A DNA stretch of 48,526 nucleotides. Origin: a bacterium. Its GTDB lineage: Bacteria; Desulfobacterota_D; UBA1144. The position numbers and the translations under genes were made by a program. Positions 27,155-31,165 of this stretch are shown here, one piece after another; the stretch's first letter is position 1; each line of letters starts with the position of its first letter. The notes beneath the pieces were generated by a model that saw nothing but the letters and a program-made list of their open reading frames with translations, was not told where the DNA came from and ran no database searches. The DNA lies in the NCBI GenBank assembly GCA_002708105.2, contig PAOQ02000014.1, positions 1-48,526 of the forward strand. The letters are read 5' to 3'.

Positions 27155-28276
27155 ATGGAAAGAGAGAAAATTTTAAAAGGAATAAAAAGAGTTGTAATCA
27201 AGATTGGCTCTAAGGCACTAGCTAATAAAGAGAATATAAGTTATGAAAGAATTCAATCTTTGTCTAATGATATTAATAAGTTAAGAAAGTCTGGAATTGA
27301 ATGTTTAATTGTTTCCTCAGGAGCGATTCTTGCCGGAAATGAATTTTTTAATTTTAATATAAAGAAATTAAATGTCTTAAGAAAGCAGGCGGTTGCTTCA
27401 CTAGGCCAAGTTAAATTAATGAGTTACTACATTAAAGCTTTTTCAAAAAAAGAGATAAATGTATCTCAACTTCTTCTAACAAATGACATATTTAATGATA
27501 GAAAAAGATTCCTTAATACAAGAGCAATGATTTTAGAATTATTAAAAATGAAAATTATTCCAATAATAAATGAAAATGATACAGTTTCAGTTGATGAAAT
27601 AATGTTTGGGGACAACGATATACTTGCATCAAAAGTTGCTGCAATGATGGATGCCGATTTGTTGGTCTTATTAACAGATATTGATGGTTTATATAGTAAT
27701 AATCCAAAAACAAATAAAAAAGCTCAGTTAATAAATAACCTAGATGAAACAAGCTTTAATTCTGAAGTTATCGATGATGTTGAATCACAAGTTTCTTTTG
27801 GGGGAATGAATTCCAAGATTAATGCCGCCCTTGAAGTTTCTAAATTTGGAATTCCGACCTTAATAGCTAATGGTAAAACGAAAGATGTTTTAAAAGATAT
27901 TTTTAATTTTAAAGATATTGGTACAGCGATAATCCCAAGTTCAATTAAAATTAAGAGTAGAAAAAAATGGATTGGTATGGGACCTAAATCTTCAGGGAAA
28001 TTATATTTAGATACTGGTGCCGCAAATGCGATTATAAATAACAGAAAGAGTCTGTTGCCTTCTGGAATTGTAAAGATTGAAGGTGTCTTTTCAAAAGGAC
28101 AGCAAGTCGTGTGCATTAGAACCATCGACAATTCCCCAATAGCAAGGGGTCTAATCTCTTATAGTTCTGATGAAATCAATTTAATTAAAGGTAAGAAGTC
28201 GTCAGAAATTGAAAAAATTTTAGGATACAAATATTCCGATGAAATTATAAACAGGGATAATATGGTCCTTATATAA
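27155..28276 (+). CDS. proB: Glutamate 5-kinase
   Basis: A 373-residue protein with an amino-acid kinase domain (about 1-258: VVIKIGSKALAN, IVSSGAILAG, NENDTVSVDEIMFGDNDILA, LTDIDGLY, SFGGMNSKINAA) and a C-terminal PUA domain (about 280-365, ending IEKILGYKYSDEII). It phosphorylates glutamate as the first step of proline synthesis and is normally feedback-inhibited by proline. proA does not follow: the next gene converges and overlaps by eight bases. Upstream lies tRNA-Gly on the other strand. Confidence 0.94.
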   Translation: MEREKILKGIKRVVIKIGSKALANKENISYERIQSLSNDINKLRKSGIECLIVSSGAILAGNEFFNFNIKKLNVLRKQAVASLGQVKLMSYYIKAFSKKEINVSQLLLTNDIFNDRKRFLNTRAMILELLKMKIIPIINENDTVSVDEIMFGDNDILASKVAAMMDADLLVLLTDIDGLYSNNPKTNKKAQLINNLDETSFNSEVIDDVESQVSFGGMNSKINAALEVSKFGIPTLIANGKTKDVLKDIFNFKDIGTAIIPSSIKIKSRKKWIGMGPKSSGKLYLDTGAANAIINNRKSLLPSGIVKIEGVFSKGQQVVCIRTIDNSPIARGLISYSSDEINLIKGKKSSEIEKILGYKYSDEIINRDNMVLI

Positions 28277-29087
28277 AGTTTAATAAATCCTCAGTTTGCC
28301 TCTGATTTGTTGGCCTATGAAAAGCTATGCTAGATTCTTTTCTCTCAATTCTAATGTTTCCATTTTGTGCCCTATAGGCTACAAACTGTGATCCATAGGT
28401 TTCTTTTGAAATAGTGTTTAAAATGATAGGGAAGTTCTTTGAACCTATAAATATTGAATGTATACAGATTCCTAATTTTTTAGCTCTTTGTCTTTCTTTT
28501 CGTACTTCTGTATCACCTGATGTTGGTATTCCATCAGTTATGAATAGTATGTGTTTATTTCGCAATCCCCTCCCTTTAAAATCTGAAATTGCATCCCTAA
28601 GAGCTTCCTCATAATTGGTATTTCCTGAACATTCGGTTTTTGTCGAACTATCTAATATGGTTTCATATTCTTTAGTAAAGAATTTCTCTTCAACTATAGT
28701 TTTGAAGGATTTGTGATTAAATTCTATATAGCCAACACGCATTCTTTTTTGTCTAGCAAGCTCAACTACAGCCCTTACAACCGATGAAGACCATTCACTA
28801 TATACTCCCATCATAGATGTGCTAATATCTCTAAGAATTGCAATTTCTCCCCCCATAGTCTCTTTTTCTCTTTGATGTACTCTTGGAAGTTGTGGAGATA
28901 TGTTTTTTGTCCAAATTGTTGCATCCATTGGGTCAACATCCTCTATTTCATAGAAGGAATTCATTCTTTTGTATCTTCTTGGTGAGCCACCTGGATGAGT
29001 ACCTCTTTTAGCAATACTTCGCTGAATATTTCCATCAAGTACTTTCATGACTATTTGCACATTTTGTGCTATCTCGGAGTTATCCAT
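28269..29087 (-). CDS. VWA-domain protein, BchD/ViaA/CoxE-like
   Basis: From the ATG at 29087 the protein has 272 residues. After a basic linker (IAKRGTHPGGSPRRYKR) comes a von Willebrand A domain with a complete metal-dependent adhesion site: D87-x-S89-x-S91 in RDISTS, a Thr in NTNYEEAL, and ITDG. VWA partners of MoxR/RavA/ChlI-type ATPases couple ATP hydrolysis to chelation or complex assembly. The ATG has no good Shine-Dalgarno, and the same frame is open for 123 further codons upstream, so this is probably not the true N-terminus: the domain may be reached by frameshifting out of the ATPase gene. Its stop overlaps proB by eight bases. Confidence 0.75.
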   Translation of the reverse strand: MDNSEIAQNVQIVMKVLDGNIQRSIAKRGTHPGGSPRRYKRMNSFYEIEDVDPMDATIWTKNISPQLPRVHQREKETMGGEIAILRDISTSMMGVYSEWSSSVVRAVVELARQKRMRVGYIEFNHKSFKTIVEEKFFTKEYETILDSSTKTECSGNTNYEEALRDAISDFKGRGLRNKHILFITDGIPTSGDTEVRKERQRAKKLGICIHSIFIGSKNFPIILNTISKETYGSQFVAYRAQNGNIRIERKESSIAFHRPTNQRQTEDLLNFI

Positions 29088-29456
29088 TGTCCCAACTTTA
29101 GATAAATCTGTATCGCCAGATTTTTTTGATTTACTTGCATATACTTTTTCAGATAAAGGAGTTTGATCAGTTTGTCCATCTCCATCATCTTCATTCCTAT
29201 TTGAGGGGTTAGTAGGGACTTTATCTTCAGCATCAAATGGCTTTGAGCCATCATCAGTTGAAAGATTATCTTGAAGTTCTTCTAGAGCTTCAGTGAAGGA
29301 ATTTAATGCTTCTTTTAGCTCGTCTTCCGACAGCTCAGATTCTTTTTCTGCTGAATCACCAGCTTGCTTATTAGGTGAATCTTTCTCGAAGTCATTTCCT
29401 TCTCTTTTTTGGTTATTCTCTACTTCTTGGTCTTTTTTTTTTGGGCTTGAAGTGAC
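29088..29456 (-). other. Charged linker-coding open frame joining the ATPase gene to the VWA domain
   Basis: This stretch between the two genes is not empty. On the minus strand, in the VWA frame, 123 sense codons run from a TGA at 29459-29457 to the ATG at 29087. They encode an Asp/Glu/Ser/Asn/Lys-rich segment (for example EKESELSEDELKEALNSFTE and NEDDGDGQTDQTP). There is no ATG, GTG, TTG or ATT in it; a single CTG at 29333 is the only conceivable start. Such acidic linkers separate the AAA and VWA parts of BchD/ChlD proteins. At about 30% GC, so long a frame without a stop is unlikely by chance. The first codons overlap the end of the ATPase gene. Confidence 0.7.
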
Positions 29457-30364
29457 TCAAGCTTTTCTTCAGCCATTTTTAAAACTTCTTCTGGAACCCT
29501 AAAGGCTAGAAGATATTTTAATGCTTTTAAATCTTCAAGATTAGCTTCGTCACGATTATTTAATATTGCACTAGCTTTTATAATTTTGATTGATTTTACA
29601 AGAAATGTTCTATCAGAAATTACAGAATTTGACTCATTTAATCTTTGATCATCAATGAGCCATTTAATAAAACTAATTAATCCATCTTGAACCTCGGAAG
29701 ATACCACAACTTTTTCAAGTTTCGAATAGCTTTCATCAAGCACTTTTTTCCCTATTTTTTCTACATGACCATTAGCAGTATTTTTCGCAGAGTATAAATT
29801 TACAATCTTTATTACATCATCCCATTCTTTACTATATGAAAGACCACTTGAATTTATTTGTATAACAAATCTGTCTAAATTTGCTGGATCAAGAGGTTCA
29901 TTGTAGTATTCGTCAGCAGTAGGATTACTTGTTGCGATTGCTGTTAGAAGAGGAATTTCTTCATCCCCATATTTCCTTTCATTTAAAATTCTTAAAAGAA
30001 CATTCAAAGATTCACCAGGCGCCCTAGATATGTCATCTAAAAGACATATTTCCGATGTAAGAATTCCACCTCTAATTATATTTTGCCTTATAATTTCACC
30101 ATCTTTTGTGTCTTCCCTAGATATAACTAAATCACCAACTAATTCAGAAAGCCTAGTATCTCTATGCATTTGATAAAAGAAAAAATTTAGCTCTGCTGAT
30201 TTTGAAACGATTTCGGACAACATTGTTTTTGCTGTTCCTGGTGGTCCCTGTATATAAATATGTTCCCTTGAAATAATACCTAATAATAGTGCTGTCTTTA
30301 CATCTGAATGACCTACTACGAGTTCATCCATTTCAGTTCTTAGTAATTCGAAAGGGTTAGACAT
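29420..30364 (-). CDS. MoxR/RavA-type AAA+ ATPase
   Basis: 314 residues. Walker A is GPPGTAKT at 40-47. Walker B reads CLLDD with D110-D111, so Asp replaces the usual Glu, and the following SRAPGESLNVLLRILNER segment and ATSNPTADEYYNEPLDPANLDRF (sensor 1 and arginine-finger region) fit the MoxR/RavA/ChlI helix-2-insert clade. These ATPases work with VWA proteins as chelatase motors or assembly chaperones, and a VWA gene is directly downstream. The C-terminus ends QAQKKKTKK on an A10 run. If a ribosome or polymerase slips there, residues 1-311 are joined to linker and VWA to give about 698 residues. No cofactor-biosynthesis gene is near enough to name the substrate. Confidence 0.85.
   Translation of the reverse strand: MSNPFELLRTEMDELVVGHSDVKTALLLGIISREHIYIQGPPGTAKTMLSEIVSKSAELNFFFYQMHRDTRLSELVGDLVISREDTKDGEIIRQNIIRGGILTSEICLLDDISRAPGESLNVLLRILNERKYGDEEIPLLTAIATSNPTADEYYNEPLDPANLDRFVIQINSSGLSYSKEWDDVIKIVNLYSAKNTANGHVEKIGKKVLDESYSKLEKVVVSSEVQDGLISFIKWLIDDQRLNESNSVISDRTFLVKSIKIIKASAILNNRDEANLEDLKALKYLLAFRVPEEVLKMAEEKLESLQAQKKKTKK
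29432..29442 (-). promoter_or_regulatory. A10 slippery run, candidate -1 frameshift site
   Basis: Reading the minus strand in the ATPase frame, the codons are CAA AAA AAA AAG ACC AAG AAG TAG. The last seven bases of the run, A AAA AAG, are the classical -1 slippery heptamer of dnaX, in the correct phase, and an A10 tract also favours RNA-polymerase slippage. Moving -1 enters the VWA frame at GAC. A 5-bp hairpin, CTTGA / TCAAG, lies just upstream; no strong downstream stimulatory structure was seen. Confidence 0.55.
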
Positions 30365-30499: not shown

Positions 30500-31165
30500 T
30501 TGAAGATTGAGAGAAAGATTAACTATAAGTTCAAGAACCAGAGTCTACTATCTGAAGCTCTAACTCATAGTTCGTATGCAAATGAGTCATCAAAAAAAGA
30601 TAATGAAAGGCTTGAATTTTTAGGGGACGCAATTATTAGCTTTATAGTAACCAAACATCTTTTCTCGATTTTTCCTGAATACGATGAGGGACGGTTATCA
30701 AAGTTAAAAAACCAAATCGTTAGCACTAAATCTTTTTATAAAATAGTAAAAAAAAATAAATTAGAAACTTATTTACTTTTAGGAAAAGGGGAAATAAAAT
30801 CTGGTGGAAAAAAAAGAGAATCAAATTTAGCTGGGCTTTTTGAAGCAATAGTTGGAGCAATATTTAAAGATTCCGGAATCAGATCAGCAGAAGCATTCCT
30901 TAAAAAGTTTTTATTAGATCAAGATTTTTCAAATTTTATAGATGAGGATTATAAATCAATATTGCAGGTTGAATCTCAAAAGAAATTAGGTGTTTTGCCA
31001 AAGTATGTTGTAGAGAAGCAGGAGGGACCTCCACATAAAAGAGAATTTCATGTTTCAGTTTTTATTAATAAAAACAAGCAGGGTAAGGCAAAAGGAAAAA
31101 GTAAAAAAGATGCAGAGAATAAAGCTGCTAAAACAGCTTTAAAGAAACTTAAGAAGGCTGGGTAA
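30500..31165 (+). CDS. rnc: Ribonuclease III
   Basis: 221 residues. The RNase III signature ERLEFLGDAI is at 36-45 with catalytic-site acidic residues E39, D43 and the later E of LFEAIVGAIFKD; a double-stranded-RNA-binding domain occupies about 150-220 (QVESQKKLGVLPKY, GKSKKDAENKAAKTAL). It processes rRNA precursors and cleaves structured RNA. The start is a TTG at 30500 behind AGAGGTGA. The gene is divergent from the MoxR gene across a 135-base spacer, and its last 17 bases overlap the end of the convergent ntrC-like gene. Confidence 0.95.
   Translation: MKIERKINYKFKNQSLLSEALTHSSYANESSKKDNERLEFLGDAIISFIVTKHLFSIFPEYDEGRLSKLKNQIVSTKSFYKIVKKNKLETYLLLGKGEIKSGGKKRESNLAGLFEAIVGAIFKDSGIRSAEAFLKKFLLDQDFSNFIDEDYKSILQVESQKKLGVLPKYVVEKQEGPPHKREFHVSVFINKNKQGKAKGKSKKDAENKAAKTALKKLKKAG

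Follow-up and report, generated by a model that had tools for sequence, protein, structure and literature searches.

On the minus strand of the window, by which we mean the whole 48,526-nucleotide stretch of DNA that was analyzed, an open reading frame for a MoxR-type ATPase ends 10 nt past a run of ten A residues, and an overlapping frame continues from there into a VWA domain. Does this arrangement represent two independent proteins, a damaged gene, or a single gene whose two products part company at the A-run? The assembly that contains the window is about 0.9 Mb and 88% complete, and the closest named relatives of its genome are Candidatus Dadabacteria MAGs, UBA1144 among them.

Organization and family of the ATPase-VWA gene

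The ATPase ORF (29420..30364, minus strand) specifies 314 aa and ends with a TAG stop at 29420-29422. It contains an AAA_5 core (29867..30259, minus strand; residues 36-166) followed by an AAA lid domain (29507..29641, minus strand; residues 242-286), and its 3′ end reads CAA AAA AAA AAG ACC AAG AAG TAG. As claimed in the first-pass annotation, an A10 run, the proposed slip site, is present here (29433..29442, minus strand), together with the heptamer A AAA AAG in the ATPase phase four codons ahead of the stop (29432..29438, minus strand), which is a possible −1 ribosomal slip site. The +1 frame is closed by a TAA 17 nt past the run (29413..29415, minus strand). The −1 frame (28269..29456, minus strand) is open for 395 codons, from 29456 to 28272, with its stop at 28269. 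It encodes an acidic linker (29088..29432, minus strand) that would be reached only via a slip, and in which third codon positions are the most variable when read in the VWA frame, and then a VWA domain (28365..28844, minus strand; residues 205-364 of the VWA frame; PF00092, E 3.3e-8) with MIDAS-like DISTS, T and D motifs. Behind the run this frame offers no ATG, GTG or TTG before codon 124, which lies 335 nt past the ATPase stop. The annotation had also predicted that a −1 move would yield a protein of about 698 residues in the order ATPase, acidic linker and VWA domain, and the computed product of a −1 shift on the A10 run agrees (311 + 387 = 698 residues).

On one side of the gene lies an RNase III-like ORF transcribed divergently (30500-31165), and on the other a glutamate-5-kinase-like ORF that converges on it (27155-28276) and corresponds to AA_kinase+PUA proteins in relatives. 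The 3′ ends of this kinase-like ORF and the VWA ORF share 8 nt (28269-28276). Just six runs of ten or more A residues occur in the whole 908,595-base assembly. Two further A10 runs of this genome lie within long ORFs (C6:27539 and C17:24822), where they are read in frame within open frames of 220 and 410 codons.

Judged by profile scores, the gene is a MoxR-class ATPase with a VWA partner. A MoxR-type AAA domain with lid is present (bpMoxR, 73.8 bits with a cut-off of 27; AAA_5, AAA_3 and AAA_lid_8 above their cut-offs), and the ATPase matches PDB 2r44 and RavA. The VWA part, whose MIDAS motif includes DISTS, exceeds the cut-offs of PF00092, VWA_2, VWA_3 and VWA_CoxE. When the VWA part was used for a PDB profile search there was no significant match, and an AlphaFold model of an in-frame homolog, made from a 5-sequence alignment, had a pLDDT of 39 and was not used. 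The earlier opinion that the ATPase is MoxR-like rather than a chelatase is borne out by the bpMoxR score and by the values for the chelatase models, on which assignment to ChlD/BchD or cobaltochelatase was rejected (Mg_chelatase, 19.2 against 20.3 bits; TIGR02442, 20.3 against 779 bits). RavA itself was rejected as well, with 64.7 against 681 bits for the equivalog NF010054 and a protein length of 314 rather than 498 aa. We also considered the MoxR-vWA ternary conflict system (PMC7159879), but no linked third component or effectors occurred among the neighbors of the relatives. Those neighbors differ between phyla and comprise housekeeping genes or unrelated ones (proB-type kinase, YceG/MltG, IMPDH and others), PADLOC gave weak IetA matches only, and a search of the same neighborhoods for a client indicated none, the neighbors again differing between lineages.

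Conservation of the A-run in orthologs

When 58 Dadabacteria genomes were searched, the ATPase was found in 54 and the VWA part in 54, and all 43 high-quality genomes contained both. Our comparison covered all 51 evaluable intact Dadabacteria loci plus seven orthologs from three further phyla (G089; G081, G101 and G102; G153, G290 and G388, grouped by phylum). Every one of these 58 loci, representing four phyla, has a run of nine to eleven A residues at the same Lys codons (A9 in 5, A10 in 36 and A11 in 17). The ATPase and VWA parts are divided at the run in 43 Dadabacteria, with the VWA part at −1 in 41 (including G055, which has four N's behind the run), at +1 in two (G001 and G017, both carrying A9) and in frame in none. 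The other 15 loci contain a single in-frame ATPase-linker-VWA ORF; these are eight Dadabacteria (seven of seven genomes of family f5, and f7) and all seven outgroups, among which G089 is counted although its contig stops inside the VWA part. The in-frame loci also keep the run, as AAA AAA AAA or AAA AAA AAT. Fused relatives in four phyla retain it too, so what is conserved is the run and not the −1 offset. The first-pass annotation had asked whether both would be shared by homologous loci; the run was (58/58) and the frame offset was not, with 15 loci in frame and two at +1.

The run is conserved beyond what chance would leave. The run is AAA AAA AAA (or AAA AAA AAT) in every locus, and AAA usage at nine other conserved Lys columns is 34-78%. 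AAA accounts for 16% (G153) and 11% (G290) of the Lys codons of the gene, yet the run consists of ten A's in both. G153 also carries a second, diverged copy of the gene, an in-frame ATPase-VWA paralog (48% identical to the query) that, in contrast to the run-bearing copy, has no A-run at that place. Of all invariant stretches in the 2.1-kb gene, the run is the longest across 13 f1 genomes (15 nt; runner-up 8) and likewise across 13 f4 genomes (11 nt; runner-up 8), and it ranks second in f2. Its length is fixed at A10 in 13/13 f2 genomes and at A11 in 13/13 f4 genomes, and its phase varies between families. A decayed gene copy with several stops and without the run was seen in G035, although its family (f2) is otherwise conserved.

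Both non-VWA frames are closed within 47 nt in 58/58 loci, and in the in-frame orthologs each of the two other frames meets a stop after 0-41 nt. Since this closure was only weakly enriched relative to synonymous shuffling (family mean p 0.05-0.42), alternative-frame stops were not relied on as independent evidence. On a quick tree of the ATPase and VWA parts, which has some long branches, a minimum of five changes in frame state (in frame, −1 or +1) and six in run length are required, and the run was never lost in an intact ortholog. The in-frame state of f7 and of every outgroup suggests, without proving, that this form is ancestral.

Translation of the VWA frame and the nature of the proposed slip

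Codon-position comparisons were used to follow translation behind the run. For f1 we took codons 12-30 of the VWA frame, a segment that precedes every start codon in the family, G001 excepted; positions 1, 2 and 3 differed in 0.12, 0.14 and 0.45 of comparisons, respectively. The same test gave 0.01, 0.00 and 0.23 in f2, and both halves of the gene were found to be under purifying selection. Translation of the VWA frame directly behind the run is thus strongly supported by the pattern of substitutions. The first-pass reading that one locus makes two products also gains strong support, from the conservation of the run, the −1 offset in 41/43 split genes and this codon-position signature; one gene very probably yields a short ATPase as well as a long ATPase-VWA subunit by slipping on the A-run.

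We infer that the run is a programmed slip site acting mainly through transcriptional slippage, and that its two products would assemble into mixed rings with few VWA tails; the probability of this reading as a whole is about 0.68. RNA polymerase would add or drop A's at the A9-A11 run, ribosomes may contribute extra −1 slips at the Lys codons, and the mRNAs of one gene would then enter the sequence behind the run in different frames. One of these would lead through the acidic linker into the VWA domain and give the long subunit, and the other two would stop in 0-47 nt and give the short ATPase. With the A10 run of the window the short ATPase would be the default and the long form would need a slip, whereas the reverse would hold in the in-frame relatives. 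The conserved homopolymeric run of about nine or more A/T residues by which programmed transcriptional slippage is recognized occurs here as A9-A11 in 58/58 loci. The varying phase of the run, the two +1 genomes and the in-frame lineages that keep the run also argue for this mechanism.

Alternatively, the same two products could be made from homogeneous transcripts if programmed −1 ribosomal frameshifting on A AAA AAG or A AAA AAA were the main mechanism, as in E. coli dnaX and chlD. The window does have an in-phase X XXY YYZ heptamer (A AAA AAG), and in 41 of the 43 split genes, whose runs differ in length and phase, the offset is −1. Moreover, the only tRNA-Lys seen among the tRNAs typed in this 88% complete genome was a single tRNA-Lys(UUU), and poly-A frameshifting of Mg-chelatase fs-genes in E. 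coli rises with run length from 10 to 63%, cassettes with 7, 9 and 11 A's giving 10, 40 and 63% (PMC3711429). However, 7 nt would be sufficient for such a shift, yet the run is 9-11 nt long, and the in-frame lineages retain a run of the same length. Nor was a conserved stimulatory element seen: pseudoknot-free folding downstream of the run gave family mean z values of 0.1 to −2.0 with no apparent fold in common, and the families showed no shared upstream Shine-Dalgarno-like motif. In addition, the VWA part of the two A9 genomes is at +1, which is out of reach of a −1 ribosomal shift, although these genomes could reflect either a real change in run length or an assembly error. With no conserved hairpin or Shine-Dalgarno-like element seen and two A9 genomes at +1, transcript slippage, which the first-pass annotation had offered as perhaps the better mechanism, is favored. 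We assign it about two thirds of the likelihood as the main cause and ribosomal slipping about a quarter, and both may act.

It is very unlikely that the VWA part is started at an internal codon as a separate protein, unjoined to the ATPase. Such a start would be compatible with the codon-position test in f2, where most genomes have an ATG 20 nt past the ATPase stop, but the f2 genome G016 lacks this ATG. The first start codon in f1 is 101-335 nt downstream, the exception being the A9 genome G001 with an upstream TTG in the VWA frame, and a separately started VWA protein is excluded in f1 because the coding signature, which begins at the run, precedes any start codon. Furthermore, 15 loci have this gene as a single ORF, and independent initiation would leave the conservation of the run without a reason. 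Equally hard to credit is phase variation at the DNA level, in which replication slippage would alter the run and toggle the VWA part within a population. The run does vary from A9 to A11, two A9 cases are confined to single genomes and the frame state changed at least five times, but frequent switching predicts that about one third of the genomes in each family would be in frame, whereas none of the 43 split genes is, and the run length is fixed in f2 and f4. Finally, a sequencing artefact or decaying pseudogene, of which the copy in G035 is a true example, is refuted for this gene by the genome comparison, since independent assemblies share the run in 51 intact loci, no high-quality genome of the phylum lacks the gene (43/43) and both halves are under purifying selection.

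Possible role in ring stoichiometry and relation to known systems

If slippage occurs as proposed, the AAA ring domain common to both products would make mixed rings possible in which some of the six subunits carry no VWA tail. Were the fused gene expressed without recoding, every subunit of a ring would bear such a tail, six in all, whereas a mixture of short and long subunits would allow rings with few. CbbQ and CbbO associate in a 6:1 ratio (CbbQ6:CbbO1), and the authors of that study suggested that a single VWA per hexamer may be a common principle (PMC4660213); data for NorQ and NorD also fit 6:1 and indicate NorQ6:NorD1 (PMC9976466). We infer that mixed rings would serve one-VWA-per-hexamer assembly, as in CbbQ6O1 and NorQD. 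These two systems and RavA-ViaA likewise combine a MoxR AAA+ ring with a VWA/MIDAS partner, but their partners are separate genes, whereas here the VWA domain would be a C-terminal extension of some ATPase subunits. A more far-reaching proposal, which we hold tentatively and at somewhat less than even odds, is that the slip site arose before at least four bacterial phyla diverged, or else passed from one to another, and that it sets the number of VWA-bearing subunits per MoxR ring; selection would then hold the run rather than the frame, the default product would flip by lineage with both always made, and transcriptional slippage would serve as a standing means of keeping ring stoichiometry asymmetric.

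One close precedent is frameshifting in chlD/bchD chelatase genes (PMC3711429, PMC9227772), where an A-rich slip site also allows one gene to encode an AAA-only and an AAA-linker-VWA product and where in-frame fusions exist elsewhere. The present gene differs in that its ATPase is of the MoxR type rather than ChlI, and in that a run of 9-11 A's is common to split and in-frame orthologs. Poly-A transcriptional slippage has been reported for tssM, in which one gene slips to make its long form and another to make its short form (PMC4256274); tssM1 of Citrobacter rodentium slips about 20% on A11, and tssM3 of Yersinia is in frame (PMC4256274). The tssM sites are sporadic, however, whereas the site described here is phylum-wide and occurs in four phyla within one orthologous family. 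In the open-access literature we found no prior report of recoding in MoxR/VWA genes or of a frameshift in Dadabacteria.

If the proposed mechanism is correct, MoxR/VWA chaperones would join the few cellular genes whose recoding is deeply conserved, and an orthologous slip site would have outlived changes of reading frame. The reason for the single VWA partner of MoxR rings would become testable in one gene, as altering the run should shift the subunit ratio. Annotation pipelines, for their part, would split the gene or overlook its short product.

Another parallel is dnaX, which makes two AAA-sharing subunits from one gene at an A-run, either by A9 transcriptional slippage in Thermus (PMC1088944) or by ribosomal frameshifting on A AAA AAG in E. 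coli. The in-frame lineages of our family would work alike, a slip giving the short form, although the gene is unrelated and the short form would be the default in the window. The genome of the window has its own dnaX homolog (G000:C23:6366-7430, a 543-aa ORF) with an A9 run near codon 413 (ATG GAA AAA AAA AGC CTA), where the +1 frame runs straight into a stop (GCC TAA), an arrangement that resembles Thermus dnaX slippage.
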